From: Rhizobium sp. L1K21
Lineage (GTDB): Bacteria > Pseudomonadota > Alphaproteobacteria > Rhizobiales > Rhizobiaceae
Reading direction: 5' to 3'
NCBI RefSeq assembly: GCF_024055895.1
Contig: NZ_JAMXLE010000001.1
Location: 1,054,001-1,118,000 of the forward strand
Length of the DNA stretch: 64,000 bases
The translations under genes were made by a program, and so were the position numbers. The notes below the pieces were generated by a model. The model was not told where the DNA came from and did not search any database. It worked only from the letters and a program-made list of their open reading frames with translations. Positions 19,966 to 52,698 of this stretch are shown one piece after another (within the stretch, counting starts at the first letter, position 1; each line of letters starts with the position of its first letter).

Positions 19966-21333
19966 ATGGCCGCGACATATACATTTGAAGAATTGAAGAA
20001 AGACGTGGCCGAGGGCCGGATCGATACGGTTTTGTCTGCGCAGGTTGATATGCAGGGGCGCTTGATGGGCAAGCGCTTTCACGCGCAGCACTTTGTCGAC
20101 AGCGCCTGGGAAGAAACCCATTGCTGCAACTATCTGCTGGCAACCGACCTGGAGATGGAAACCGTCTCCGGTTACAAGTCGACAAGCTGGGAGGCTGGCT
20201 ATGGCGACTATTCGGTGAAGCCCGACCTGTCGACGCTGAGACGCATTCCCTGGCTGGAAGGCACGGCCCTGGTGCTGTGCGATTTTTACGACCACCGCAC
20301 GCATGAAGAAGTGCCGTTTTCACCGCGCAGCATTTTGAAGAAGCAGATCAAGCGGCTGGAAGCCATGGGCATGAAAGCTTTCATGGCGACAGAGCTGGAA
20401 TGCTTCCTGTTTGAGGAAAGCTACGAGGCGGCCAGTGCCGCAGGCTACCGCGGGCTCAATCTGATCAGTGGTTATAACGAGGATTACCACATCTTCCAGA
20501 CGACCAAGGAAGAGGATGTGATGCGGGCGATCCGCAACGGACTTGTTGGCGCTGGCGTGCCGGTGGAAAACACCAAGGGTGAAGCCTTTGCCGGTCAGGA
20601 AGAAATCAATGTGAAATATGCCGAAGCGCTTCTGGCAGCCGACAATCACGCGATCAGCAAGAACGGGGCAAAGGAAATCGCCTGGCAGAAGGGCAGGGCG
20701 CTGACCTTCCTTGCCAAATGGGCCTATGATGCCGCGGGCAATTCATCGCATGTGCATCAATCGCTCTGGAGCCTTGACGGCAAGCCGCTGTTTTATGATC
20801 CCGCGCGTCCTGCCGGCATGTCGGAATTGATGGAGCATTATATTGCCGGGCTTCTGGCGCATGCCGAAGAGATCACCTATTTCCTGGCGCCCTATATCAA
20901 CTCCTATAAACGCTTCGTTGCGGGAACCTTCGCGCCAACCAAGATTGTCTGGTCGAAAGACAATCGCACCGCGGGCTTTCGTCTTTGCGGTGAGGGTGGC
21001 AAGGGTGTGCGCATCGAATGCCGCATTGGCGGAGCCGATCTGAACCCCTATCTTGCTTTCGCGGCGCTTCTAGCTGCGGGCATTGACGGCATTGAAAAGA
21101 AGATGGTGCTACAGCCGGAGAACACCGGCGATGCCTACGGTGCCACGGGTGTGCGGGAGGTACCCAAAACCCTGCGTGTAGCGATGGATGCATTGGATAA
21201 GTCTGCCATGCTGCGGTCCGCTTTTGGTGACGATGTGATCGACCATTACAAGCGTGCGGCGGAGTGGGAGCAGGAAGAATATGACCGGCGTGTCACCGAT
21301 TGGGAAGTGAAGCGCGGGTTCGAGCGGGCGTAG
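19966..21333 (+). CDS. Glutamine synthetase family protein (PuuA/GlnT-like gamma-glutamyl ligase)
   Basis: The 455-residue protein has the GS fold: metal-binding Glu in MATELECFLF, GQEEINVKY, the ATP/metal region GNSSHVHQSLW, KRFVAGTFAPTKIVW with a glutamate-site Arg in NRTAGFR, and IGGADLNPYLAFAALLAAG. It belongs to the GlnT/PuuA side of the family, which ligates glutamate to amines rather than only to ammonia. The adenylylation-loop sequence of GlnA is not evident. Placement after a TRAP importer and before ALDH and alcohol dehydrogenase suggests ATP-dependent gamma-glutamylation of an imported amine. The exact amine is unknown. Confidence 0.88.
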   Translation: MAATYTFEELKKDVAEGRIDTVLSAQVDMQGRLMGKRFHAQHFVDSAWEETHCCNYLLATDLEMETVSGYKSTSWEAGYGDYSVKPDLSTLRRIPWLEGTALVLCDFYDHRTHEEVPFSPRSILKKQIKRLEAMGMKAFMATELECFLFEESYEAASAAGYRGLNLISGYNEDYHIFQTTKEEDVMRAIRNGLVGAGVPVENTKGEAFAGQEEINVKYAEALLAADNHAISKNGAKEIAWQKGRALTFLAKWAYDAAGNSSHVHQSLWSLDGKPLFYDPARPAGMSELMEHYIAGLLAHAEEITYFLAPYINSYKRFVAGTFAPTKIVWSKDNRTAGFRLCGEGGKGVRIECRIGGADLNPYLAFAALLAAGIDGIEKKMVLQPENTGDAYGATGVREVPKTLRVAMDALDKSAMLRSAFGDDVIDHYKRAAEWEQEEYDRRVTDWEVKRGFERA

Positions 21334-21397
21334 CTGCCGATTTCTTGTTAATTTCGCAAAATTTTGCTAAAATCACAAATCTGCGAGGGAAGTGGTG

Positions 21398-21856
21398 ATG
21401 GACAGCGAGTGGTTCTATTGGCAACTGGGCCGTGAAGGGCGGTCGCTCAGCGGTTTGGCCAAGGCGCTCGGGCTCGATCCCAGTGCTGTTTCGCGCATGT
21501 TGCGGGGTGAGCGCAAAATGAGCGCTGACGAGCAGGATGGAATTGCAGACTATCTCGGCGTTTCCTTGAATGCGGTGGCCGCGCGCCGGCGCGGCGATGC
21601 GGCGGGTTTCGCGGAAAAAGGTCAGGAGAGTTTTGAAATGGATATGGAGGGCGCTGACGTTGCGATGGCAGGCCGAAAGCCGAAGTCTGACACTTCAAAG
21701 AGCGCTTCGAAAGCGGAGATCGGTTTTCTCGAAAGGATCGGCAACAAGATGGCCGGAACGGTGACGATTCCGGCTGGCGTGGATATCACCGCACCTGCCG
21801 ATCCTGACTGGGCCCGCGTCTATGACGAGGACTATGACTATCCGCTACATCTTTGA
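21398..21856 (+). CDS. XRE-type helix-turn-helix protein, probable antitoxin
   Basis: The 152-residue protein has an N-terminal Cro/CI-type helix-turn-helix (SLSGLAKALGLDPSAVSRML, about residues 16-35) and a low-complexity linker. The C-terminal tail is acidic (DWARVYDEDYDYPL) and may wrap the toxin. GAGGGAAG lies seven bases before ATG 21398; two GTG codons precede it. The gene overlaps the PIN-domain gene by 23 bases, which together with the small size points to a type II toxin-antitoxin pair. It interrupts an otherwise coherent catabolic operon. Confidence 0.75.
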   Translation: MDSEWFYWQLGREGRSLSGLAKALGLDPSAVSRMLRGERKMSADEQDGIADYLGVSLNAVAARRRGDAAGFAEKGQESFEMDMEGADVAMAGRKPKSDTSKSASKAEIGFLERIGNKMAGTVTIPAGVDITAPADPDWARVYDEDYDYPLHL

Positions 21857-22244
21857 CACCTGTTGCCTTTTGTTTCTCTCTCAGCCCGGTATTTCGATTG
21901 AGCCTGACGCTCGGCAGGCGCTTAAGGTGGCAGGTGGTGGGTTTCACGTTTCCGCCATCAGCGCATGGGAGATCGGATTGCTCGTCGCCAAGGGACGATT
22001 GAATCTGACCCGGCCGCCGCTTGAGTGGTTTAATATGTTTGTGGAGGATCGGAGTATGAATGTGCTGGAGGTGACGCCCTCGATACTTGTTGGGTCGTCC
22101 TTCCTGCCTGAGCCGCTGCACGGAGATCCCGCCGACCGTATCATCATCGCGACCGCGCGCGAATACGATTTGAAAATTATAACACGCGACAAAGCCATTC
22201 TGGCCTATGGCGCGGCAGGTCACGTCAAGACGCTGGCCTGTTAA
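21834..22244 (+). CDS. PIN-domain ribonuclease, VapC-like toxin
   Basis: The 136-residue protein shows the PIN acidic residues: Asp8 in YIFDTCC, Glu46 in SAWEIG, and Asp98/Asp101 in HGDPADRIIIATA, then Asp119 in ITRDKAIL. This matches VapC-type RNases of the Sll0205-like subgroup. ATG 21834 or ATG 21822 could start it; both lie inside the preceding helix-turn-helix gene. The pair would be autoregulated through the upstream protein. It ends 13 bases before the ALDH start. Confidence 0.82.
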   Translation: MTIRYIFDTCCLLFLSQPGISIEPDARQALKVAGGGFHVSAISAWEIGLLVAKGRLNLTRPPLEWFNMFVEDRSMNVLEVTPSILVGSSFLPEPLHGDPADRIIIATAREYDLKIITRDKAILAYGAAGHVKTLAC

Positions 22245-22257
22245 CTTGGAGAACCAC

Positions 22258-23640
22258 ATGACTATGATCAGATGCATTTCGCCGGTTGACGGCTCGGTTT
22301 ATGCCGAGCGTCCGGCTTTGAGTTATGACGATGCCGCCACCGCTGTTGGGCGCGCGCGAAAGGCGCAGAAGGCATGGGCGGCGCGCCCGCTGGAAGAGCG
22401 TATTCAGCTGGTTTTGAAAGGCGTTGCGCGCCTGAATGAGATGGCCGATGTGGTCGTTGAGGAACTGGCCTGGCAGATGGGCCGTCCGGTGAAATATGGT
22501 GGCGAGTTCAAGGGCTTTAATGAGCGCTCGAACTATGTTTCAACCATCGCTGCTGACGCCTTGGCACCCATCATGGTGGAGAGCTCGGACAGTTTCGAAC
22601 GCTATATTAAACGCGAGCCGCTGGGCGTGGTGTTTGTGATTGCGCCTTGGAACTATCCTTACATGACGGCGATCAACACGATTGCGCCGGCGTTGATGGC
22701 GGGCAACACGGTTGTGCTGAAGCATGCCAGCCAGACATTGCTGGTGGGTGAGCGCCTGGTGCAGGCTTTCAACGAAGCGGGCGTGCCGGAAGACGTGTTC
22801 ATGAATGTGGTTCTGGATCACGATACGACCTCGGCGCTTCTCGGCAATGGCATGTTCAATTTCGTCAACTTCACCGGCTCTGTCGCTGGTGGGCGTGCCA
22901 TTGAGCGTGCTGCTGCGGGCTCGTTTACTGGCATTGGCCTTGAACTCGGCGGCAAGGACCCCGGTTATGTGATGGAAGATGCCGATCTGGATGCGGCGGT
23001 CGATACGCTGATGGATGGTGCGACTTTCAATTCGGGCCAGTGCTGCTGCGGTATCGAGCGCATATATGTGAACGAAAATCTCTATGACGAGTTTGTCGAA
23101 AAGTCGGTGGCCTGGGTTTCCAATTACAAGCTCGGCAACCCGCTCGACCCGCAGACCTCGCTTGGCCCAATGGCCAATAAACGGTTTGCCGATACGGTGC
23201 GCGCACAGGTTTCGGATGCTATCTCCAAGGGTGCCAAGGCACTGATTGATCCGAAGCTCTTTCCCGAGGATGATGGCGGTGCCTATATCGCGCCGCAGAT
23301 CCTTGTCGATGTCGACCATTCGATGGAGTTCATGCGCGAGGAGACCTTTGGTCCAGCCGTTGGCATCATGAAAGTGAAGAATGACGAAGAGGCGCTGGCG
23401 CTCATGAATGATTGCCAGTACGGCCTGACCGTTTCACTGTGGACTGGCGATGCGGAACGCGCCGCACGGCTGGGCGATCAGCTGGAAACCGGCACGGTGT
23501 TCATGAACCGGGCGGACTATGTCGACCCCGGCCTTTGCTGGACCGGCTGCAAGGATACGGGCCGTGGCGGTTCGCTTTCTATCATCGGCTTCCATAACCT
23601 CACCAGACCCAAATCATTCCACCTGAAAAAGGCACTTTAA
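22258..23640 (+). CDS. NAD(P)-dependent aldehyde dehydrogenase
   Basis: The 460-residue ALDH-superfamily enzyme oxidises an aldehyde to a carboxylate. Visible elements are the cofactor region PWNYPYMTAINTIAPALMAG, the general-base Glu in LELGGKDPG, the nucleophilic Cys within FNSGQCCCG and the EETFGPAVGI motif. Start ATG 22258 has GGAG (22248-22251) upstream. The next gene begins one base after its stop. With the GS-like ligase and the alcohol dehydrogenase it fits the second oxidation of a gamma-glutamylated amino alcohol. Confidence 0.9.
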   Translation: MTMIRCISPVDGSVYAERPALSYDDAATAVGRARKAQKAWAARPLEERIQLVLKGVARLNEMADVVVEELAWQMGRPVKYGGEFKGFNERSNYVSTIAADALAPIMVESSDSFERYIKREPLGVVFVIAPWNYPYMTAINTIAPALMAGNTVVLKHASQTLLVGERLVQAFNEAGVPEDVFMNVVLDHDTTSALLGNGMFNFVNFTGSVAGGRAIERAAAGSFTGIGLELGGKDPGYVMEDADLDAAVDTLMDGATFNSGQCCCGIERIYVNENLYDEFVEKSVAWVSNYKLGNPLDPQTSLGPMANKRFADTVRAQVSDAISKGAKALIDPKLFPEDDGGAYIAPQILVDVDHSMEFMREETFGPAVGIMKVKNDEEALALMNDCQYGLTVSLWTGDAERAARLGDQLETGTVFMNRADYVDPGLCWTGCKDTGRGGSLSIIGFHNLTRPKSFHLKKAL

Positions 23641-23641
23641 G

Positions 23642-24787
23642 ATGTCAATCACTGCAAACTGGAGCTATCCGACCGCGATCAAAATGGGCGCGGGGCGGAT
23701 TGGCGAACTCGCCGAGCACTGCAAAGCCGTCGGCATGAAAAAGCCGATCCTGATTACCGACCGTGGTCTTGCCTCGATGGAGATCACGAAGAAGGCGCTC
23801 GACATTCTCGAAGCGGGCGGGCTTGGCCGGGCGATTTTCGCCGATGTCGATCCCAACCCCAATGAGAAGAACCTCGAAGCCGGGGTGAAGGCGTTCAAGG
23901 ATGGGGGTCATGATGGCGTGGTCGCATTTGGCGGCGGTTCGGGGCTCGATCTTGGCAAATGCGTTGCCTTCATGGCGGGGCAGACACGGCCTGTCTGGGA
24001 TTTCGAAGATGTCGGCGATTGGTGGACGCGCGCCTCTGTTGAAGGAATTGCGCCGATTATCGCTGTTCCGACCACAGCGGGTACGGGCTCGGAAGTGGGG
24101 CGCGCGTCCGTCATCACCAATTCGGTGACCGAGACCAAGAAGATCATCTTCCATCCGAAGTTCTTGCCCGCAGTCACGATCTGCGATCCGGAGCTGACTG
24201 TCGGCATGCCCAAGCACATCACGGCGGGCACCGGCATGGATGCTTTTGCGCATTGCCTGGAGGCCTATTCGTCACCTTTCTACCACCCGATGAGCCAGGG
24301 CATTGCGCTCGAAGGCATGCGGCTGGTGAAGGAATATCTGCCGCGCGCATATGCCGACGGTTCGGATATCGAAGCCCGCACGCATATGATGTCGGCTGCT
24401 GCGATGGGGGCGGTTGCTTTTCAGAAGGGGCTCGGTGCCATCCATTCGCTGTCGCATCCAGTCGGCGCGATCTACCACACGCATCACGGCACCACGAATG
24501 CTGTTGTGATGCCGCCGGTGTTGCGCTTCAACCGGCCTGCGGTTGAGGAGAGGCTTGCCGCTGCTGCAGCTTACCTTGGAATTTCCGGCGGTTTTGACGG
24601 GTTCTACGACTTTGTTCTGGAACTGCGTTCGACCCTTGGCATTCCCGACAAGCTGGCCGAGTTGGGTGTGAAGACTGACCGGATCGACGAGATGTCGAAA
24701 ATGGCCGTTGCCGACCCATCAACCGGCGGCAATCCTGTGGAACTGACTGTAGAGGCAGCCAAAGAACTCTTTGAGCAGTGCATCTAA
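23642..24787 (+). CDS. Iron-containing alcohol dehydrogenase
   Basis: The 381-residue group III alcohol dehydrogenase has the nucleotide site GGGSGLDLGK, TTAGTGSEVG, and the metal ligands in TGMDAFAHCLEAY and IHSLSHPVGAIYHTHHG. These enzymes interconvert alcohols and aldehydes with NAD(P). It closes the plus-strand cluster and is followed by a clear terminator. Supplying the aldehyde for the adjacent ALDH is the simplest reading. Confidence 0.92.
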   Translation: MSITANWSYPTAIKMGAGRIGELAEHCKAVGMKKPILITDRGLASMEITKKALDILEAGGLGRAIFADVDPNPNEKNLEAGVKAFKDGGHDGVVAFGGGSGLDLGKCVAFMAGQTRPVWDFEDVGDWWTRASVEGIAPIIAVPTTAGTGSEVGRASVITNSVTETKKIIFHPKFLPAVTICDPELTVGMPKHITAGTGMDAFAHCLEAYSSPFYHPMSQGIALEGMRLVKEYLPRAYADGSDIEARTHMMSAAAMGAVAFQKGLGAIHSLSHPVGAIYHTHHGTTNAVVMPPVLRFNRPAVEERLAAAAAYLGISGGFDGFYDFVLELRSTLGIPDKLAELGVKTDRIDEMSKMAVADPSTGGNPVELTVEAAKELFEQCI

Positions 24788-24815
24788 ACGTCCGCAGAGA
24801 TGTGATTACGGAAAG

Positions 24816-24842
24816 GCGCGGGAATTTTTCCGCGCTTTTTTT
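24816..24842 (+). terminator. Rho-independent terminator after the catabolic cluster
   Basis: GCGCGG (24816-24821) pairs with CCGCGC (24830-24835) and is followed by a run of seven T residues. Confidence 0.75.
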
Positions 24843-24870
24843 ACTTTTCGGCCTCAAGTATGCCCGGCGC

Positions 24871-24886
24871 TTAACGCATAGTTAAC
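24871..24886. promoter_or_regulatory. CtrA box upstream of the first ParA-like gene
   Basis: TTAACGCATAGTTAAC is an exact match to the CtrA consensus TTAA-N7-TTAAC, the binding site of the master cell-cycle regulator of alphaproteobacteria. It lies about 150 bases before the chosen start of the ParA-like gene. Confidence 0.7.
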
Positions 24887-25034
24887 CATAAGTTGCAAGT
24901 CTCCCAAACGCGCGATGTCGCTTTGCGCATGGGAGGGGCGAATGATTTTCTCGCCTTGTGGAAACGGTTTCTTCGGCTTCACCCCAAAAAATCATTTCCT
25001 CAAGGCGCTGCCTGTTTCAGAAGAGATTTGCCCC

Positions 25035-25850
25035 ATGCCCGTTCTCGCATTTGCCAATTCCGTATCCGGTTCCGGAAAGACAACTTCGGCCTTGCTCGCC
25101 GCTTTCGAATTTGTCCATCGCGGCTATACCGTCGCCGTTTTGGATGCTGATCCCCGGAACACAGCTGGACAATGGGCGGCGACAGCCGGGGCCAAAGCCA
25201 AGCTGACGGTGATTTCAGATGTCACGGCATTGAATGTCGGAACGCTTGTTGCGCAAATGGCGGATCGTTTCGATATGATCATCATCGATCTGCCGAGCGA
25301 TCTTTCGCCGGTCGTGAGTGCTGCCATCCTGTGCGCCAATCATGTGGTGGTGCCGGTGAAAAGCAGCGGGGCAAATGCGGCGGCGCGCGAGCCGGTTCTT
25401 GAGCTTATCAGCCGCCTGGAATGCGACCTTGGAGCAAAGATTTCGCATTCGGTCGTCTTCACATCGACACAAGGGGCAGGTCGCCCGCAGGCTCTGGACG
25501 CACCGAGCAGGCGGCTCAATGCTCAGGGTGTCCACGTACTCAAGCAAACCATTTCGAAATGCTCAGTCTTCCGCGCGATCCTGGAAGGCGGGGAGCCGAT
25601 CGCAATATTCGACCCTGTCGCGCTTTTCGTTCACAAGGCCGAACGGGAAATGATGCGTGCCTATTCGTTGGAGCTCATGTGGCGTATGCCGACGCTGCGC
25701 CGCAGCGCTCAAGCCGTTCCGGTTGTTCCCGCTCGGGTCGATGAAAAGGTTGAGGCTGTTGCAGCCAGCCCGGTTGAGGCACGCCTGGTTGGCGCAAATC
25801 GCCTGCTTGAATATGCCCGCACGCGTGTTGCGGCTGCCTTCGCAGCTTAG
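25035..25850 (+). CDS. ParA/VirC1-like ATPase with an altered Walker A motif
   Basis: The 271-residue P-loop ATPase aligns over its first 40 residues with the paralogue at 26263 (FANSVSGSGKTTSALLA; VAVLDADPRNTAGQW). In ParA/MinD ATPases the deviant Walker A carries an early 'signature' lysine (KGGxGKT); here that position reads SVSGSGKT, so the lysine is Val. Later segments (DMIIIDLPSDLS; HVVVPVKSSG) are intact. The Ala-rich C-terminus extends about 30 residues beyond the paralogue. Start 25035 matches the paralogue; an in-frame ATG at 24942 with GGGAGGGG would add 31 residues. Probably involved in positioning or segregation; the cargo is unknown. Confidence 0.8.
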   Translation: MPVLAFANSVSGSGKTTSALLAAFEFVHRGYTVAVLDADPRNTAGQWAATAGAKAKLTVISDVTALNVGTLVAQMADRFDMIIIDLPSDLSPVVSAAILCANHVVVPVKSSGANAAAREPVLELISRLECDLGAKISHSVVFTSTQGAGRPQALDAPSRRLNAQGVHVLKQTISKCSVFRAILEGGEPIAIFDPVALFVHKAEREMMRAYSLELMWRMPTLRRSAQAVPVVPARVDEKVEAVAASPVEARLVGANRLLEYARTRVAAAFAA

Positions 25851-26110
25851 AAACAGGTTCCCACGACCTGCGGCAGCTGATGGGATGCTTCAAATGCAGC
25901 TATTAATTCTCATCGAAAACATCTTGTAGGCGATATGTGTTGCGCCGGTCATGGCGGCATCTTGAATGATTGTGCCATCTTGTGCGCATATCCTTTCCAG
26001 CAAGCCTTTCAGCCCATTTTCGCTGGATGGCGTGCTATGATTTGCCTCGATAATTCAGAGCTTTGGCGGTTCTTCCTTCGGTTCCAGCTCACTATCGCCT
26101 TCGATTGCAC
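25851..26110. other. Long leader region between the two ParA-like genes, no gene seen
   Basis: Together with the CtrA box and leader that follow (to 26262) this is about 410 bases without a supported gene. After the box, TGCGCAATGGGGAG (26151-26164) resembles TGCGCATGGGAGGGG (24924-24938) after the first box, suggesting that control region and gene were duplicated together. Confidence 0.45.
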
Positions 26111-26126
26111 TTAAGCCTTCGTTAAC
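26111..26126. promoter_or_regulatory. CtrA box upstream of the second ParA-like gene
   Basis: TTAAGCCTTCGTTAAC matches TTAA-N7-TTAAC exactly and lies 137 bases before the gene start, almost the same distance as the box before the first paralogue. Both boxes continue with CAT. Confidence 0.7.
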
Positions 26127-26262
26127 CATGTTTGTTCCAGATTTAAATCAATGCGCAATGGGGAGCGCAGGGGATGGGCAGATGCGAAAGAGCCCCGGAA
26201 GTAATCCGCGTCCCAATCAAGTTTTGGCGCCGACCGGCGGCGGTGGCGCGTTGGAGCAATGA

Positions 26263-26985
26263 ATGTCAGTTATTACACTTGCGAACACGAAGGGCGGAGC
26301 AGGGAAAACAACCGCAGCGCTTCTTTTGGCAACGGAGTATGCCCGGCAGGGCTATAGGGTCGCGGTTCTCGATGCCGATCCGCAAAAATGGATTACCGCG
26401 TGGTCCGAGGCCAGTGGCGGGGCGGCCAATCTCGAAATCATCTCACAGGTCACTGCAACATCATTGCCGTCACTTATTCGAGAAATGCGTAATCGCATCG
26501 ATTTCTTCATCGTCGATCTTGCAGGTGCGCGTAATGCCCTTCTGGGAACGGCGCTCGGCATATCAGACCATGTACTGATACCGGTTCAGGGCTGTGCGAT
26601 GGATGCGCGTGGGGCTGCGCAAGTTCTGGAATTGCTGGAACAGCTGAAAATGCAGTGTGGTTTGGACATTGCCCATTCGGTGGTTCTCACCCGTGTCAGT
26701 TCACTGGTGACCACGCGTGCGCTGGCTGCTGTAAAGGCGATGCTCAACGCACGGGGCGTCAATGTCCTGGAAACACCCTTAAACGAGCGTTCCGCTTACC
26801 GGGACGTTTTCGAATATGGTGCAACCCTTTATAATGCGGATCCAATTGCGATCAGCAACCTGGACAAGGCGCGTGATAATGCGCGTACGTTTGCTGCAGA
26901 AGTGAAGGCGCTCCTGCCGCGCAAAGTAGGGCGGTCGATCCCTGGCTATAGCCTGCCAACTTGGCGAAGAATTCGGGCTGCCTGA
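26263..26985 (+). CDS. ParA/VirC1-like ATPase, canonical
   Basis: The 240-residue protein starts with a standard deviant Walker A (ANTKGGAGKTTAALLLATEY, residues 6-25, signature Lys9) and has Walker A' VAVLDADPQK and the Walker B-like region FFIVDLAGARN. The sequence after Walker B (LGISDHVLIPVQ) resembles VirC1-type ATPases more than chromosomal ParA. GGAG lies eight bases before ATG 26263. No parB-like gene or parS repeats are next to it. It may act with or antagonise the divergent paralogue upstream. A hairpin terminator follows. Confidence 0.85.
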   Translation: MSVITLANTKGGAGKTTAALLLATEYARQGYRVAVLDADPQKWITAWSEASGGAANLEIISQVTATSLPSLIREMRNRIDFFIVDLAGARNALLGTALGISDHVLIPVQGCAMDARGAAQVLELLEQLKMQCGLDIAHSVVLTRVSSLVTTRALAAVKAMLNARGVNVLETPLNERSAYRDVFEYGATLYNADPIAISNLDKARDNARTFAAEVKALLPRKVGRSIPGYSLPTWRRIRAA

Positions 26986-27007
26986 GGCGTTGATCTCGCG
27001 AAATGCG

Positions 27008-27038
27008 AAAGCCGTTCGGCGGGGGCCGGGCGGCTTTT
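27008..27038 (+). terminator. Candidate terminator after the second ParA-like gene
   Basis: AAAGCCG (27008-27014) pairs with CGGCTTT (27031-27037), followed by one further T. The loop is long (16 bases, itself GC-rich) and the T-run short, so support is moderate. Confidence 0.45.
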
Positions 27039-27186
27039 GACGTTTCATCGTTCAATAATTCATGCCATCTCGGCGGCGCGCCCGCACCCAAATTAAAGCC
27101 CGCGAAATCAGGGGCATGCGACCGGGAGCCGTAGGTAAATTTTAACAAAAGGATGACAGGCTAAACCGATTAAAGCGGTTAATGTG

Positions 27187-30100
27187 ATGTTTCGGTCCAA
27201 AACTCTATTTCAGATTGTATTTTATTCTTTGTGCGCGTCTCTTTTTGCCGCAGTACCCGCTCGTGCAGCGTCCGAGGACGTTATAGCGTTCAACGCCGAC
27301 ATGACATGGATGCTGACTGCCGGCGCGCTTGTGATGTTCATGCAAGCCGGTTTCCTGCTCCTCGAAGCGGGTATGGTGCGCTCGAAGAACTCCATCAACG
27401 TCGCGCAGAAGAACCTGCTGGATTTCGTCTTTTCCGTCGCCGCGTTCGCGTGTGGCGGTTTCATGATCGCCTTTGGTTCTTCTTCGCCGCTGAGATTGGG
27501 TTTTGACACGGACTTTCTGTTTCTCAGCAACCTGACCGGCTTTGAGGCCGGATTTTTTGTTTTTCAGGTGATGTTTTGTGGAACAGCCGCCACCATCGTT
27601 TCAGGTGCGGTTGCCGAGCGTATGCGCCTGTCGGCCTATGTGGCCGGTTCGTTCTTTCTGTCCGTGATCATCTATCCCGCCTTTGCGCACTGGGCCTGGG
27701 GAGCCGCACTGGGACCCAATGAAGGGGCATTGCTGGGCAATATCGGATTTATCGACTTTGCGGGTTCCACTGTCGTGCATGCAACAGGTGGTTGGGTGGC
27801 GCTGGCGGCCTGTATGGTGCTTGGCACGCGCGAGGGCCGTTTTGACAAGGATGGCAAACCTTTGCGTATTGCCGGCCATAGCCCGGTGCTGGCGACGACC
27901 GGTGGGCTGTTGCTGTTCATCGGTTGGATCGGTTTTAACGGTGGTTCAACGCTGAAGGCCGGCGAAGACATGGCCCATATTGTGCTGAACACCATCCTTG
28001 CCGGCGGGTTCGGCGCCGTGGTGGGACATGTGCTCGGCTATTACAATGACGGCTACTATCTGCCTGAAAAGCCGGTCAACGGTATGCTTGGCGGGCTCGT
28101 TGCCATTACTGCTGGCTGCCACGTGCTGACGCCTGCGGGGGCGATTGTCATCGGAATTGTAGGCGGATTGATTGCTATTCATGCCAATGACGTCTTGGCG
28201 AAACGCTGGGGGATCGACGATGCCGTTGGTGCCATCGGGGTTCACGGCTTTGCCGGTGTTGCGGGCACAATCGGCTTGGCATTTCTGGCACCGAGCGAGC
28301 ATCTGCCGGGCGGCCGCCTTTATCAGGTTTACGTTCAATGTTTCGGCTCGCTGCTCAACTTCTATTTTTGCTTTCTGATGGGATATGCCTTCTTCTGGGT
28401 TCTGAACCGGTTCAGGAATATCCGCATCAGCCATGAAGATGAAGTCATTGGTCTGAATATTACCGAACATGCCACCCGTATCGGCGTGGGCCACGTTGAG
28501 GATGCGCTTGAGAAGCTGCTGTCGGGCAGGAGCGAAGTCGGTTATCGCCTGGATGCGGTGGCCGGCGATGAAGCAGAGAAACTCACTGGGCTCTTCAACG
28601 ACTTGATGGGCAAGCTGGAGACCGAGCATCGAGAAAAGGCGGAACTGGAAACACTGAGAATCCGCTCGGAAGAAGCCGAACGTGTCGCCGCCCTGTCGAA
28701 TGCAACTTTTGAAGCCATTGTCATGCACAAGGATGGTCTCATTGTTGATTGCAACGAAGAATTGGGCCGTCTTCTCGGTTCGGATGTCGAGAGCTTGAGG
28801 GGCCGGCAGGCAGCAGACATCGTCACGCACGATTCGCTGATTGAAATTCGCAAGGCCATAGACACACATTCGGATGCTGTCCGCGAAATCATGCTCGTGT
28901 CAGCCAGTGGTGAGCACATACCGGTTGCCGTGCGGGCGCGTGTGATCAATTACAGGGGTGAAGACGTGCGGGTTGCCTGTATGGTGGACTTGCGCGAACG
29001 CAAGGCCGCAGAGCGTGATATGATACGTCTTGCCCAGCAGGATCCGCTCACCGGACTGGCGAACAGAGCTCAGTTCAACGAATGGCTGGAGATGGCTGTG
29101 CGCTCTGCTGCAAAGGGCAGCAGCACTGCCTTGATTCTTGTTGATCTGGACCGTTTCAAGAATGTGAACGACGTCCATGGCCACCAGGCAGGTGACAAGG
29201 TGATCAAGGAGGCCGCATCGCGGCTGATCGCTCTGGCGGGCAAACACGGCAGCGTGGCGCGGCTCGGTGGTGATGAATTTGCCATCATTCAGCATGATAT
29301 CGATTTCACCAATCAGGCTGCCGATACAGGTTTGCGGATCGTTCAAGAGATGGCGCGCCCGATCGAACTCGATAATGGTGCCGTCGCGATGATTGGTGCC
29401 AGTGTCGGCATAGCTCTTTGGCCCGAACATAGCGACGATGCTGAAACGCTCATCGCGCGCGCCGACATAGCGCTTTATCATTCAAAGAACACCGGCCGCA
29501 GCGCATCCAACGTTTTCCGGCCGGGGCTCAACGAATTGATCGAGAAGCGACGCGCGCTCGAGGCCGATCTCGAACAGGCGCTGGAAAACGGTGAATTTGA
29601 GCTTTATTTCCAGCCACGGGTTGACGCGCAGACGCTCTCAATTCACGCCTATGAGGCGCTGATACGCTGGAACCACCCCGCGCGTGGGCTGGTCAGCCCT
29701 GCAGATTTCATTCCCGTTGCCGAGGCCTGCGGCAAGATCGTCGATATCGGGAAATGGGTTTTCCGCGCGGCCTGTGAAGCCGAACGGGGCGTGCTGAAGG
29801 GCGCGCGCATCAGCGTCAATGTCAGTCCTTTGCAGTTTCAGCAGAAGGATTTTGTCGCCGGTATTCAGGATACATTGACGGAAACCGGCGCAGATCCGGC
29901 CATGATAGAGCTTGAGCTGACAGAGAGCATGTTGATTGAGGATGACGCCCGTGGGCTTTCGGTCATGAAGATGCTGAAGTCGTTGGGCATTGAATTGGCG
30001 CTCGACGATTTCGGCACCGGTTACTCCTCGCTCTCTTACCTCTCCAAATATCCCTTCGACACGATCAAGATCGACCGTGGCTTTGTATCCGCTTTCAACA

Positions 30101-30447
30101 CAGACGAAAATGCGATTGCCATTTTGAAGGCGATTATCGGGCTGGGCAGGGGGCTGGGCATGAAAATCGTGGCGGAAGGTGTTGAGACGGTGCAGGAGGC
30201 AGCCTTTCTTCGGCAGAACGGCTGTGATCAGTTGCAGGGTTATCTTCTCGGCAAGCCAACGGCAGTCGATGCCATCCTCCATGAAATTGATGCAGCAACA
30301 ACAAGGCAGATCCGCGAATATGTGCCTTTCAGCGCCGGCGATGTTCAGGCGGACATGTTGCGCGAAGTCGGAAGCCGGTTGGAAAATGGCTTGCCCAGGA
30401 ACATGCAGCAGCAAGTGCCCACGGCCGGATCGCGTGGGATCACCTGA
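27187..30447 (+). CDS. Ammonium transporter (Amt) fused to PAS, GGDEF and EAL domains
   Basis: The 1086-residue protein starts with a signal-like helix, then a complete Amt domain (about residues 35-420; GxVAERMRLSAY region) with the conserved pore histidines His198 (VVHATGG) and His353 (GVHGFAG). A cytoplasmic linker and a PAS-like domain (about 500-600) lead to a diguanylate cyclase domain with intact GGDEF at 694-698 and an EAL phosphodiesterase domain with EAL at 823-825, NVSPLQFQ, ELTES, DDFGTGYSS and AEGVET. All catalytic residues appear present. The design implies c-di-GMP turnover governed by ammonium binding or flux. No glnK gene is adjacent. ATG 27187 is preceded by an in-frame GTG. 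Confidence 0.93.
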   Translation: MFRSKTLFQIVFYSLCASLFAAVPARAASEDVIAFNADMTWMLTAGALVMFMQAGFLLLEAGMVRSKNSINVAQKNLLDFVFSVAAFACGGFMIAFGSSSPLRLGFDTDFLFLSNLTGFEAGFFVFQVMFCGTAATIVSGAVAERMRLSAYVAGSFFLSVIIYPAFAHWAWGAALGPNEGALLGNIGFIDFAGSTVVHATGGWVALAACMVLGTREGRFDKDGKPLRIAGHSPVLATTGGLLLFIGWIGFNGGSTLKAGEDMAHIVLNTILAGGFGAVVGHVLGYYNDGYYLPEKPVNGMLGGLVAITAGCHVLTPAGAIVIGIVGGLIAIHANDVLAKRWGIDDAVGAIGVHGFAGVAGTIGLAFLAPSEHLPGGRLYQVYVQCFGSLLNFYFCFLMGYAFFWVLNRFRNIRISHEDEVIGLNITEHATRIGVGHVEDALEKLLSGRSEVGYRLDAVAGDEAEKLTGLFNDLMGKLETEHREKAELETLRIRSEEAERVAALSNATFEAIVMHKDGLIVDCNEELGRLLGSDVESLRGRQAADIVTHDSLIEIRKAIDTHSDAVREIMLVSASGEHIPVAVRARVINYRGEDVRVACMVDLRERKAAERDMIRLAQQDPLTGLANRAQFNEWLEMAVRSAAKGSSTALILVDLDRFKNVNDVHGHQAGDKVIKEAASRLIALAGKHGSVARLGGDEFAIIQHDIDFTNQAADTGLRIVQEMARPIELDNGAVAMIGASVGIALWPEHSDDAETLIARADIALYHSKNTGRSASNVFRPGLNELIEKRRALEADLEQALENGEFELYFQPRVDAQTLSIHAYEALIRWNHPARGLVSPADFIPVAEACGKIVDIGKWVFRAACEAERGVLKGARISVNVSPLQFQQKDFVAGIQDTLTETGADPAMIELELTESMLIEDDARGLSVMKMLKSLGIELALDDFGTGYSSLSYLSKYPFDTIKIDRGFVSAFNTDENAIAILKAIIGLGRGLGMKIVAEGVETVQEAAFLRQNGCDQLQGYLLGKPTAVDAILHEIDAATTRQIREYVPFSAGDVQADMLREVGSRLENGLPRNMQQQVPTAGSRGIT

Positions 30448-30453
30448 TCCTGG

Positions 30454-31809
30454 TCAATCCACGAACTGAACGATCACGCCGGGTTTGATCATCTTGGCCA
30501 GTTCGCGTGCATCCCAGTTGGTGAGACGAACGCAGCCATGGCTTGCGGTCTTTCCGATCTTGGAGGGATCGGGTGTGCCGTGAATGCCGTATGTCGGTTT
30601 GGAGAGTGCAATCCAGACATCGCCCACGGGACCGTTCGGGCCCGGTGGGATCGTGAGAACCGAGCGGTTTTCGCCCTGCTGGAAATTGATCTTGGGATTG
30701 TAGGTATAGTTCGGATCAAGCGCGATGCGTTCGACCGTCACCGTTCCAGACGGCGAAGGCGTGTCGCTTGAGCCGATGGTCGCGGGGTAGGCGGCAACCA
30801 TATCGCCGTTTTCATCAAATGCCTGAACTTGCTTGATGCGTTTGTTCGCAACGATGCCGGTCACCTCGGCGCGCTTATTGGCGCCCGGATTGACGACCTT
30901 GATGACGGTGCCGGGTATGGAAAAATCAACGCCGGGGTTGATCGCCTTCAGATAGTCTTCATCCATATGGAATTGCTCTGCGAGCTTTTCAGATGTCGAC
31001 GTGTAGGACAGGGCGGGCATTGCCGCCTTCTGTGCGTAATCGGAGGGAATTTCAGCAACATAGGGACCGGCGGCGTCGGCGGGCGTGATTTCATACTGCT
31101 TGAAGGGAAGGCCGCCGTCGAGGCTCAGTCGTTGCAGGATGGAATCAGGGTTGGAGACGTCCAGCGTTTCGCCACTGGCAGCTTCCCAGGCAGCCAGTGC
31201 CTTTTCAACATTGGAGCCCATCCTGCCGTCGATGACACCGGGGGAAAAGCCTTCACGGTCGAGCAACACCTGCAGTGCGGTCACCACCTCGCGGCTGAGT
31301 TTGGTTTTGGGGGTGGCGGCCGGCATATTTTCGCTCTGCTTTGTGCTGGGCAGTGCTGAAGGTTCTTCCCATTGCTCAGAACCATCTTCCAACGACGATG
31401 TGGCGGGACCTTCAGGCAAAGGCTGGCGTTCAACCGAGCGATTGGGTTCTAAGCGCGAGGAAGGTACAGTGCCTGTGATTGCGCCCCTATCGTCTTGCCC
31501 GCCCCAGCCGGGACGATCATAACCCCAGCCGCGATTGGGATCGTAGCGGCGCACTTGTTGCTGGTCATCATATTGCCGTGTTGCCGGTACCTCATAGGCA
31601 ACGACTTCGCCGTAGCGGTTGATCAAAACGCGGCGTCCCTGGCGATCGTAGCGTAGGGTAACTTCACCGGCCTCCGGCACGTAGTCGAGGATTTCGCCCC
31701 GCGGGGTCACGAGCATGGTATCGCCTTGCTGGGCCAGCACGGGCTGTGCCGTGAGGAAAAGGGCTGATACAAGTGCCATAGATGCAGATGGAAAGCCTGA
31801 TTTGCGCAA
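30454..31809 (-). CDS. L,D-transpeptidase (YkuD) with peptidoglycan-binding region
   Basis: The 451-residue exported protein has a signal peptide (cleavage near VLA-QQ, residue 26), a Pro/Gln-rich N-terminal part, a peptidoglycan-binding-like segment (VVTALQVLLDREGFSPGVID) and a C-terminal YkuD domain with the active site SHGCVRLTN, nucleophile Cys426. It forms 3-3 crosslinks or attaches proteins to peptidoglycan in the periplasm. The start is TTG 31809, with GGTGA six bases upstream; an ATG ten codons later would remove the positively charged N-region of the signal peptide. It ends only a few bases from the convergent Amt fusion gene. Confidence 0.9.
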   Translation of the reverse strand: MRKSGFPSASMALVSALFLTAQPVLAQQGDTMLVTPRGEILDYVPEAGEVTLRYDRQGRRVLINRYGEVVAYEVPATRQYDDQQQVRRYDPNRGWGYDRPGWGGQDDRGAITGTVPSSRLEPNRSVERQPLPEGPATSSLEDGSEQWEEPSALPSTKQSENMPAATPKTKLSREVVTALQVLLDREGFSPGVIDGRMGSNVEKALAAWEAASGETLDVSNPDSILQRLSLDGGLPFKQYEITPADAAGPYVAEIPSDYAQKAAMPALSYTSTSEKLAEQFHMDEDYLKAINPGVDFSIPGTVIKVVNPGANKRAEVTGIVANKRIKQVQAFDENGDMVAAYPATIGSSDTPSPSGTVTVERIALDPNYTYNPKINFQQGENRSVLTIPPGPNGPVGDVWIALSKPTYGIHGTPDPSKIGKTASHGCVRLTNWDARELAKMIKPGVIVQFVD

Positions 31810-49716: not shown

Positions 49717-50960
49717 GCCCGTTTCCGGTAAATGTGAAAGCCGCCATAGATGGCAGAGCGGTCCAGCTTGTGCAGTTCGGCGGAGCGTTCCTCGAGGTAG
49801 TCCCACTGCTCGAGCAACGGACTTGAAAGCTTGACGGGCAAGGGGCTTCGTGCACCGGCTGTGCGGAAAATCACACGGGCATCAGGCCGCGCCGTACGGC
49901 AGATTTCGGTCCACAAGGCATCCACCTGCGCCGGCGTCATCCAGTCTTGTGCGTCCAGCAGAACGAAGCGGTCAACGCTTTGTGCTGCCTTCAAGCCGAG
50001 CATTTCCGTCATGTTGCGGTGATGGACCTTTACGCGATCCGTATTTGCACAGATCTTCGGGTAATTTTCGGCCTTGAGATAGGTCGGTGGTGCGCCTTCG
50101 CCCAAAGTGGGATAGCGACGGGAGAAGGCCTGCCATGCGAAATAGTTTTCCGAGATCGGGAAATCGCAAGCCAGTTTCTTCAAGCGTTCGCGCAGCACCG
50201 AGGCGATGTGGCCATCGGATGCGCCTTCGGCCAACTCGACATATTGTTGCGGGGGAATTCCAAGCCCGAAGAGCGAACTTTTCTGAGCGGTTACCCATCG
50301 GATGAACTTTGTGTCGAAAAGCGGTGCGATGTCGCTTTCGAAAATCTCGCGCTGCTCGTGCAGACTGCGGGCGGTGGTCAAACGCTGCAGGTTTCGGCCC
50401 TTCAGTTTCGCCGCAAGGTGGCCGGCGCCGATGAAGCGGCCAAGCAGGCCGGTTTTGTAGATATCGCGATCGAAAATGGTGATGCGGCGGCGGCCACGCG
50501 CGTCTCTGCCGTTCCAGTATTTGAGGGTATCGGCGTCGAGAAAGGGAGCAATGAAGGTGTCAAAGCTGCGGCTGTTGGTCTTCACGCCGGTGAGTGCAAA
50601 CATGCGCAGCACATCGGCGTGCGACGGCAGGTGTTTGAAAGCGGCGAGCTTCAGCCTGTTGAGCGCGATATGGTGATGGTTGAGATCGACAACATCAATC
50701 TGGCTGGGTTCTGCAGTCAGGTAGGCCAGCATGTTGCAGCCGCCGGAACCGATGGTCGCTATGGTCTGACCCGGTTCCATTTCCATGGCAGCGAGATCAA
50801 CGTCGGGATCTTCCCAAATCTGTGGATAAACCAGACCGGAAAACAACAGGCCGAATAGCCGCTCGGAAAAGCCTTCCTTGCTCAATGCGCGGTGGCGGAC
50901 AAAGGCGGATTTGAGCTGATTGTTCTTTAGATACCCGGTAATTGGCGCCATTCCGGTCAT
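49713..50960 (-). CDS. btaA: BtaA, SAM:diacylglycerol 3-amino-3-carboxypropyl transferase
   Basis: The 415-residue DUF3419-family enzyme transfers the aminocarboxypropyl group of SAM to diacylglycerol, the first step of DGTS synthesis. Features: IWEDPDVDLAAMEMEPGQ, SAM site IATIGSGGCNMLAYL, VDLNHHHIALNRLKLAA and RFVLLDAQDWM. The length equals typical BtaA. ATG 50960 has AAAGG upstream. No Pho box was identified by eye in the short divergent spacer to the GGDEF-EAL gene. Confidence 0.9.
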   Translation of the reverse strand: MTGMAPITGYLKNNQLKSAFVRHRALSKEGFSERLFGLLFSGLVYPQIWEDPDVDLAAMEMEPGQTIATIGSGGCNMLAYLTAEPSQIDVVDLNHHHIALNRLKLAAFKHLPSHADVLRMFALTGVKTNSRSFDTFIAPFLDADTLKYWNGRDARGRRRITIFDRDIYKTGLLGRFIGAGHLAAKLKGRNLQRLTTARSLHEQREIFESDIAPLFDTKFIRWVTAQKSSLFGLGIPPQQYVELAEGASDGHIASVLRERLKKLACDFPISENYFAWQAFSRRYPTLGEGAPPTYLKAENYPKICANTDRVKVHHRNMTEMLGLKAAQSVDRFVLLDAQDWMTPAQVDALWTEICRTARPDARVIFRTAGARSPLPVKLSSPLLEQWDYLEERSAELHKLDRSAIYGGFHIYRKRA

Positions 50961-51135
50961 GCAAAATGCCTTTCTTTCGCAATCGATGGACTCACCCATG
51001 CGGCAAATCAATTGGCGCTCTCTAGTCCCGTTTCGCTACAGATTGATGACGGCTGGGCTGTTGAGCCCGATATCCGATAACAAGATTTTAAGAGTCCAGG
51101 CTCTAAAGTCTGCCTATCTACAAGGAGCCGTTAAC

Positions 51136-52698
51136 ATGATGTTAAGTGTGTTTCTGTCGGACATTAAGCGGCGCTATGCAATCGCCGGTTCGGCAGCCGG
51201 AGCTTTGCTCCCACTATCGTTTTATTCGCTTGATTTGGCAAAAGGCGGAAACCTTGATTTCCTAAGCTGGGCGCTTTCCTCTCCGTCGCAATTTACGCTT
51301 GCTGCCATGCCCGTCTGGTCCGGCCTGGTGGCCCTGCAGTTTGGCAGGGGGCGTACACTGCGCATGGCTGCCGAAAAGGCGCGCCGGGAAGAAGAGAAGC
51401 GCTTGCGCTATGCCGCAACGCATGATGCGTTGACGGGACTTGGAAATCGCGCGGCGCTCGAGGACGATGGAAAACGGCTTCTCAAAGGTGGCGCGTCACC
51501 AGCGTTGCTGCTGCTTGATCTCGATCGTTTCAAATTGGTCAACGACACGCTTGGACACGATGTCGGCGATGCCTTGCTGGTGGAGATTGCAAGCCAGTTC
51601 TTGCGTCTGAAAACCCGCGGCGTTCGTGTTTACCGGCTTGGCGGCGACGAGTTCGTGTTTCTGATTTCGCGTGTCTCCGGCAATGATGATGTTGAAGACT
51701 TGTGCAGCCAGATCAAGGCTATGTTTGCTGCTCCCTTCATTCTTGAGGCGGGACCTGTGCGAAGCGGTGTCAGCATTGGCGTCTCCTATGCAACACCGCA
51801 GACATCCTTTTCCACCGTCTTGAAGAGCGCCGATCTGGCGCTCTATAAGGCCAAGGAGATCGCCGGAAGCGCGCATGTGTTCTACGAACCGGAGATGGCC
51901 GAGGAAGCCTTGAAGCGCGCGCGGCTTGAGCGCGAACTCGTACAGGCAATTGAGACAAACCAGATCTATCTGGAGTTTCAACCGATTGTCGGCGTCGAGA
52001 CGCGTGCAGTGCGTTCATTTGAGGCGCTGGCGCGCTGGCGGCACCCCACGGATGGGTGTTTGATGCCCAAGGACTTCATAGAGGTTGCCGAGCGCACTGG
52101 ACTGATCATTCCGCTCGGACTTCGCATCTTGCAGCTTGCCTGCCGCGAGGCGGTGAAGTGGCCATCGCCGCTGGGTGTTTCCGTAAACATATCGGGCGTG
52201 CAGTTCAAAGACCCGCAATTCCCCGAGATGGTGCAGGAATGCCTGCAATACTACAATCTGGCGCCGGGGCGTTTGACGTTGGAAATTGCCGAATCGGTGT
52301 TTGCGCTGGAGCTTGACGAGATCAAGGCGTGCCTGGAAGAGCTTCGTATGATCGGCGTACGGATCGTGCTCGACGATTTTGGGGCAGGATTTTCCTCCGT
52401 CAACAACATGCGCCGCTTCCAGCTCGATCAGCTCAAGCTTGACCGCTCCTTCGCTGCTGCCATGCTTTCTGATGACGCGGGCAGTTCCGAATTGATGGAT
52501 GTGATGATGCGCTTCGGTGCGACCATGAAGGTCTCAACTGCGATTGAGGGTATTGAAGACGAGCGGCAGATGGAATTCGTCAGCATTCGCGGGGCCTGCG
52601 AGGTGCAGGGATATCTGTTTTCAAGGCCGATTTCCGCCAACAAGGTTGGCGAGCTGATTGCACGTTCTGTCGGTGAGGGAGATATTGCAGCGGCCTGA
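51136..52698 (+). CDS. GGDEF-EAL c-di-GMP protein with N-terminal membrane helices
   Basis: The 520-residue protein has two N-terminal hydrophobic segments (about residues 16-34 and 50-70), then a diguanylate cyclase domain with intact GGDEF (YRLGGDEFVFL) and an EAL domain with SFEALARW, NISGVQF, LEIAES, LDDFGAGFSSV and IEGIED. Both activities could be retained. AAGGAG lies eight bases before ATG 51136. Unusually a TTAA-N7-TTAA element (51131-51145) spans the start codon. It is divergent from btaA. Confidence 0.9.
   Translation: MMLSVFLSDIKRRYAIAGSAAGALLPLSFYSLDLAKGGNLDFLSWALSSPSQFTLAAMPVWSGLVALQFGRGRTLRMAAEKARREEEKRLRYAATHDALTGLGNRAALEDDGKRLLKGGASPALLLLDLDRFKLVNDTLGHDVGDALLVEIASQFLRLKTRGVRVYRLGGDEFVFLISRVSGNDDVEDLCSQIKAMFAAPFILEAGPVRSGVSIGVSYATPQTSFSTVLKSADLALYKAKEIAGSAHVFYEPEMAEEALKRARLERELVQAIETNQIYLEFQPIVGVETRAVRSFEALARWRHPTDGCLMPKDFIEVAERTGLIIPLGLRILQLACREAVKWPSPLGVSVNISGVQFKDPQFPEMVQECLQYYNLAPGRLTLEIAESVFALELDEIKACLEELRMIGVRIVLDDFGAGFSSVNNMRRFQLDQLKLDRSFAAAMLSDDAGSSELMDVMMRFGATMKVSTAIEGIEDERQMEFVSIRGACEVQGYLFSRPISANKVGELIARSVGEGDIAAA

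Follow-up and report, generated by a model that had tools for sequence, protein, structure and literature searches.

Why does a rhizobial chromosome carry two adjacent, paralogous ParA-type ATPase genes, each behind an exact CtrA-type box, while one of the two proteins lacks the signature lysine, i.e. the residue normally required for motor function of ParA-type partition ATPases? The question bears on how the timing and placement of several cargos at once are achieved in multipartite alphaproteobacteria, and the lysine-less copy (A1) in addition offers a natural means of probing the purpose of the ParA signature lysine. In the reading preferred here, whose chances we put at about even, the canonical copy (A2) would be a CtrA-timed orphan positioning ATPase, and A1 would be a separately boxed paralog impaired in dimerisation or hydrolysis. 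The family of A2 is unnamed and widespread; A1 is so far known from this genome only. Within the window, i.e. the whole analysed stretch of 64,000 nucleotides from Rhizobium sp. L1K21, the central features are the following.

24871 to 24886, plus strand: exact CtrA-type box of A1 (TTAACGCATAGTTAAC, then CAT), at -164 from the aligned ATG
25035 to 25850, plus strand: A1, 271 aa, paralogous ATPase predicted to have the ParF fold, its P-loop (VSGSGKTT) devoid of the signature lysine
26111 to 26126, plus strand: exact CtrA-type box of A2 (TTAAGCCTTCGTTAAC, then CAT), at -152 from the aligned ATG
26263 to 26985, plus strand: A2, 240 aa, ParF/VirC1-like orphan ATPase of a conserved family, with the canonical P-loop KGGAGKTT

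The original prediction of a paralogous pair, one canonical and one degenerate, holds: A1 and A2 share 35% identity over 229 positions (E 2e-47), and their P-loops read NSVSGSGKTT and NTKGGAGKTT, respectively. A2 thus displays the deviant Walker A motif of ParA/MinD proteins, KGGxGK[ST], with both the signature and the catalytic lysine (KGGAGKTT), whereas in A1 (VSGSGKTT) V10 replaces the signature lysine, which makes A1 the sole signature-lysine-less member among 150 distinct homologs with a P-loop. The start of A1 may lie 31 codons further upstream, since an alternative in-frame ATG at 24942 (302 aa) is preceded by the better Shine-Dalgarno-like sequence, GGGAGGGG.

The departure of A1 from its family is not confined to the P-loop. 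Among 68 columns that are invariant in 26 A2-type rows, A1 has lost 36, including K10, G11, Q109, G110, D114, R144, T151, E175 and R176; for comparison, eight upstream tandem copies found at A2 loci of other genomes lost 11 to 21 of them. The nucleotide core is kept (G12, G14, K15, T16, T17, D37, D39 and D85), and with it the catalytic P-loop lysine, the switch-I Asp and the Walker-B Asp (K15, T16, D37, D39, D85). Losses on this scale are what the main rival explanation would predict, according to which A1 arose as a redundant tandem copy of A2 and has begun to decay, still open yet unconstrained, with its box a leftover of the duplication; we judge this to be unlikely, while granting it appreciable weight. 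Codon usage bears on the matter in two ways: A1 is an open frame over 271 codons with coding codon usage overall, its in-frame codon log-odds of 0.148 per codon exceeding those of A2 (0.096) and dropping to about -0.3 when the strand is read in either of its other frames, which argues against decay, but one of six stretches, codons 135-179, scores slightly negative in frame (-0.069), as decay would have it. Further counterweights are the preserved phosphate- and Mg-binding core, the exactness of the A1 box and a C-terminal extension that carries a predicted helix.

Modelled with AF2, A1 (pLDDT 79.6; above 90 in most blocks of the core, below 50 at residues 188-190 and 222-243) superimposes on ParF 4dzz with Z 26.9 and an rmsd of 2.1 over 206 aligned residues (Foldseek TMt 0.87), so that the protein is predicted to adopt the SIMIBI/ParA fold. 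By sequence, too, ParF (TP228 ParA; PDB 4dzz, 5u1g) is the closest solved relative of both A1 and A2. Like A1 and A2, ParF is a small ParA without an N-terminal HTH; it is plasmid-borne, with its partner gene adjacent. A1 and A2, in contrast, are chromosomal, have no ParB family among their scanned neighbours and lie behind CtrA boxes, and A1 moreover is devoid of the signature lysine. The best families for both proteins are ParA_partition NF041546, an equivalog whose cut-off of 180 is reached neither by A1 (97.8) nor by A2 (133.3), and Pfam AAA_31. Another relative is VirC1, a small ParA-type ATPase of Agrobacterium: A2 passes the VirC1 Pfam model PF07015 (63.1, cut-off 24) but remains far below the equivalog NF010423 (67, cut-off 313), while A1 stays under the Pfam cut-off with 16.2, and no vir genes occur among the window proteins scanned.

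Natural lysine-less members of the ParA family, as A1 is one, include McdA (type 1; SGGQGKT) and BcsQ (RGGVGTT), both given in Table 1 of PMC9178275, and PMC6328274 describes McdA as an active ATPase of unusually high rate; hence the loss of the lysine in A1 need not mean inactivity. In its lysine-less Walker A (VSGSGKTT), A1 resembles type 1 McdA, but its sequence is nearer to ParF and it adjoins a canonical paralog. No carboxysome or cellulose genes were found among the window proteins scanned, and where a type 1 McdA would call for linked mcdB or carboxysome genes, the direct neighbours encode an iron-containing alcohol dehydrogenase and an AmtB-PAS-GGDEF-EAL protein. These precedents lend some credit to a second rival explanation, in which A1, as an ATPase of the McdA or BcsQ kind, would have taken up a new, A2-independent role, serving a cargo of its own and using a substitute residue for the lysine. 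A Lys gained at the otherwise invariant Q109 may provide the latter, the equivalence of K109 being one of aligned sequence; no candidate for a linked cargo or adaptor gene is present, and we hold this explanation to be doubtful.

Another point in favour of decay is the distribution of A1. A1 is absent from all five congeneric genomes examined, and no ortholog was found in overlapping samples of 121 and 394 genomes of the family and 397 genomes of the order, where outside its own genome no match was better than the A2 orthologs (38%); since the searches of 394 and 397 genomes scored no more than six candidates in each genome, a very diverged ortholog could have been missed. Likewise, an exact-peptide search of genome contigs with A1 retrieved no relative (the records of the window itself and its nearest kin possibly being left out), and a plasmid search returned 360 records, all below 60% identity. 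On the other hand, a decayed A1 pseudogene in relatives, which had been set as evidence against the original prediction, was not seen beside A2 by tblastn: among matches longer than 80 aa no further A1-like one lay there in the five congeneric genomes, nor among those of at least 100 aa in the two closest named loci.

As for its origin, A1 sits on a very long branch of the tree (computed from deduplicated rows, with proteins of 200 aa or less and of 300 aa or more dropped), which again is compatible with decay. In AU tests, exclusive sisterhood of A1 and A2 was disfavoured (p 0.03), while trees joining A1 to the A2s of its genus (p 0.13) or to the other tandem clade (p 0.14) were not rejected. 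That other clade comprises upstream tandem copies of A2, which occur in 15 of the 80 best of 532 loci and cluster as one side of a branch (SH-aLRT 100, quick tree); 13 of the 15 have neither box nor half box, and those of Shinella, Ensifer and Rhizobium keep KGGxGKTT. Identity of A1 with the upstream copy of Shinella, Ensifer and Rhizobium is unlikely in view of the separate branch, the retained KGGxGKTT and the prevailing lack of a box, though the AU value of 0.14 is to be set against this. Judged from the sequence comparisons, A1 would not clearly be a member of any tandem or A2 clade. Tandem duplication does recur at the A2 locus, and the recurrent, patchy nature of such duplicates speaks in favour of decay. 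A different arrangement is seen in one further genome (G061; L173, 4289-6236), where a boxed A2 is followed by a boxless tandem copy downstream, i.e. on the other side from A1; this genome has a third A2-type gene elsewhere, and RepA was not found in it.

A2, for its part, is a conserved gene of Rhizobiaceae. Its loci were compared in the best 80 of 532 confirmed matches, with 4 kb on either side; being the best-scoring ones, these 80 are closely related and form a biased sample, in which the closest named loci are those of Rhizobium sp. C1 (70% in A2) and Rhizobiales bacterium AFS011520 (69% in A2). The synteny search suggested along with the original prediction yielded a stable neighbourhood, of which the following two members are present in the window.

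23642 to 24787, plus strand: iron-containing alcohol dehydrogenase, conserved upstream neighbour
30454 to 31809, minus strand: L,D-transpeptidase, conserved downstream convergent gene

Upstream of A2, the alcohol dehydrogenase is found in 76 and an aldehyde dehydrogenase in 73 of the 80 loci; downstream, the convergent L,D-transpeptidase follows in 71, within about 1 kb in 16 (best 80 of 532 in each case). The order in S. meliloti Ak57, for instance, is glutamine synthetase, aldehyde dehydrogenase, alcohol dehydrogenase, ParA family protein, FAD oxidoreductase and L,D-transpeptidase. In the window, a gene for an AmtB ammonium transporter fused to PAS, GGDEF and EAL (27184-30447, plus strand) lies between A2 and the L,D-transpeptidase, and since it follows A2 in none of the best 80 of 532 loci it is regarded as a local insertion. 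Between glutamine synthetase and aldehyde dehydrogenase, an HTH protein gene and an overlapping PIN-domain gene (21392-22244, plus strand) look like a putative toxin-antitoxin pair.

The expected lack of a nearby parB was confirmed for eight window proteins, seven at the locus (19966-31809), both direct neighbours included, and one farther off: none matched a ParB family, so that the adjacent parB of ParABS systems is missing from this set. In this respect A1 and A2 resemble the orphan ParAs PpfA and ParI, which, according to passages of PMC9178275, have no adjacent ParB; such orphans position chemoreceptor clusters or affect plasmids (same source), and several ParA/MinD ATPases may coexist in a cell, each able to serve one cargo, as stated in the abstract of PMC10241942. 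A CtrA-timed family is not mentioned in those passages of PMC9178275, and no description of a CtrA-linked or boxed orphan chromosomal ParA family was found in the open-licence PMC literature; in the main text of PMC2877005 (Brilli 2010), ParA, RepA, repABC and partition do not occur as whole words.

Both exact TTAA-N7-TTAAC boxes that had been reported at 24871 and 26111 are present, the window containing three matches to TTAAN7TTAAC compared with a mean of 0.08 in shuffles, and the claim of nearly equal distances is upheld by box starts 164 bp (A1) and 152 bp (A2) before the family-aligned ATGs. The stretch TGCGCA(A)TGGG, also claimed as common, is literally there in both leaders, overlapping in that of A1 with the Shine-Dalgarno-like sequence before ATG 24942, but the resemblance lacks significance; when the leaders are compared by blastn, the best match is GTTAACCAT, and none of the A2 orthologs in the best 80 of 532 loci has TGCGCA(A)TGGG in its leader. 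Promoter and gene may have been duplicated together, as supposed; outside the box the two leaders do not align, and when 19 selected leaders were aligned, no block other than the box was common to all. A duplicated common leader was accordingly rejected.

In A2 orthologs the part of the box that is kept is its TTAACC half, which lies within 130 bp of the start in all 80 of the best 80 of 532 loci, as an exact full box in 12, a full box with one mismatch in 27, not always at equal distance, and a half box alone in 41. The leaders comprised 300 bp each (one of them 272), and among 2158 background chunks of 300 bp, which include coding DNA and are probably AT-poorer than leaders, TTAACC occurred likewise in 20, a box with at most one mismatch in 14 and an exact box in none. 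A second sample of Rhizobiaceae, overlapping with the first in species (L039/L073 and L011/L074 match the same leader), has TTAACC before 23 of 24 homologs more than 54% identical to A2; outside this count, no box precedes the Rhizobiaceae homologs L034 (47%) and L035 (45%). Of 14 homologs from the order's other families, 11 lie behind a box with no more than one mismatch and three are boxless, and all five congeners possess a second A2-like paralog with a one-mismatch box.

The postulated CtrA-type promoters were thereby strengthened as putative ones, the more so as CtrA (protein at C7:571795) and SciP are present in the genome, this CtrA being 86% identical to a Caulobacter CtrA sequence. 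For A2, a consensus box is kept in orthologs, mostly in half or one-mismatch form; for A1 the box is exact, and no orthologs were found for comparison. From these observations we infer CtrA binding and cell-cycle timing. Alternatively, the boxes may be the site of another factor with a TTAACC core, or a promoter element common in such leaders, as the 41 of 80 orthologs with a half box alone (best 80 of 532) might suggest. Such a reading has little chance, in our estimation: the match to the CtrA consensus is exact, CtrA and SciP are encoded in the genome, 13 of the 15 upstream tandem copies at the A2 locus (best 80 of 532) do without the site, and exact boxes are also found in the vicinity of ftsK, rpoD, envelope genes, an L,D-transpeptidase gene and a methyl-accepting protein.

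Genome-wide, TTAAN7TTAACC was found 19 times (one near-palindromic place counted twice), compared with none for the reversed-pattern control, and in nine other genomes 8 to 19 times compared with 0 to 6. Seven of the 19 exact boxes precede ParA-superfamily genes, whereas chance would put about 0.007 boxes before the ten ParA-superfamily places found in the genome. These seven are A1, A2, a third paralog (contig 6, 57% to A2, box at -67) and RepA of all four repABC replicons found (C2:158461, C4:2512, C6:2397, C9:112261; L153, L154, L155, L169); no box was found at a ParA-like gene or at a Soj-type ParA of the same genome. For pAMI4 and pTi, the presence of a CtrA-type box in the repABC promoter has already been published (PMC9040568); those promoters resemble the present ones in that the box precedes a ParA-superfamily gene, but there the boxed gene belongs to a plasmid RepA operon, while A2 is an orphan chromosomal ATPase. 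RepA promoters were sampled at 30 loci, one per genome, of which 7 were unusable and one usable locus is that of the present genome: among the 23 usable loci, the box is exact at 7 and has no more than one mismatch at 10, compared with 0 of 25 places inside genes.

Boxed RepA genes raise the possibility that the A2 family serves repABC replicons as a plasmid or chromid partition helper, with CtrA coupling both. Apart from the four RepA genes here, exact boxes occur before 6 of 22 usable RepA of other Rhizobiaceae (9 of 22 with at most one mismatch), and RepA is present in 16 of 17 Rhizobiaceae with an A2-type hit, these carriers being hand-chosen (G078, G098 and G280 are among those left out). 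However, RepA was not found in the five contigs of G061 despite its three A2-type copies, and 6 of 13 homolog-bearing genomes of other families (G146, G294, G309, G374, G391, G493) are RepA-less. That the A2 family depends strictly on repABC replicons was thus rejected, and the helper reading, already weakened by the RepA-less carriers, appears very improbable.

To return to the preferred reading, A2 would represent at this locus a still unnamed family of ParF/VirC1-like ATPases, chromosomal and orphan, whose transcription CtrA drives, whereby the protein would be produced during that part of the cell cycle in which CtrA is active. By analogy with other orphan ParA proteins, it would probably dimerise in an ATP-dependent manner on the nucleoid or at the pole and thereby position a cargo. 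A1 would be a fast-diverged paralog at the locus of A2 with a CtrA box of its own; as its nucleotide pocket is kept while the lysine and about half of the invariant residues are lost, it most likely binds nucleotide without forming a normal ATP sandwich dimer. Its role may be that of a co-expressed modulator of A2, either as heterodimer partner or as competitor, or that of a newly specialised protein.

That a conserved ParA-type ATPase follows a CtrA-type site both within and outside the Rhizobiaceae, and that RepA genes are boxed as well, suggests that many positioning ATPases are under a single cell-cycle switch. A more far-reaching version, advanced here tentatively and rather unlikely to hold in full, is that CtrA governs both the order-wide orphan ParF-like ATPases and RepA, by which most ParA-type ATPases of the cell would be switched on together, and that A1 acts as a cell-cycle-timed dominant-negative via non-hydrolysing heterodimers with A2. 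If this were true, a lysine-less partner expressed from its own CtrA box would poison or tune the canonical ATPase.

Finally, some exact boxes lie outside the ParA superfamily. The third match to TTAAN7TTAAC in the window (51130-51145, minus strand) contains an ATG at which a GGDEF-EAL gene (ORF 50920-52698) may start. Elsewhere in the genome, exact boxes lie near divergent ftsK and rpoD and also near genes for a Usg-family protein, an L,D-transpeptidase, a methyl-accepting protein, an outer-membrane barrel protein, an ion channel and an aminotransferase. Downstream of exact boxes, two proteins have no family match, and L171 lay outside the scan. The boxed rpoD, ftsK, L,D-transpeptidase and Usg-family genes (L160, L170, L166 and L163) are candidate members of the CtrA regulon.
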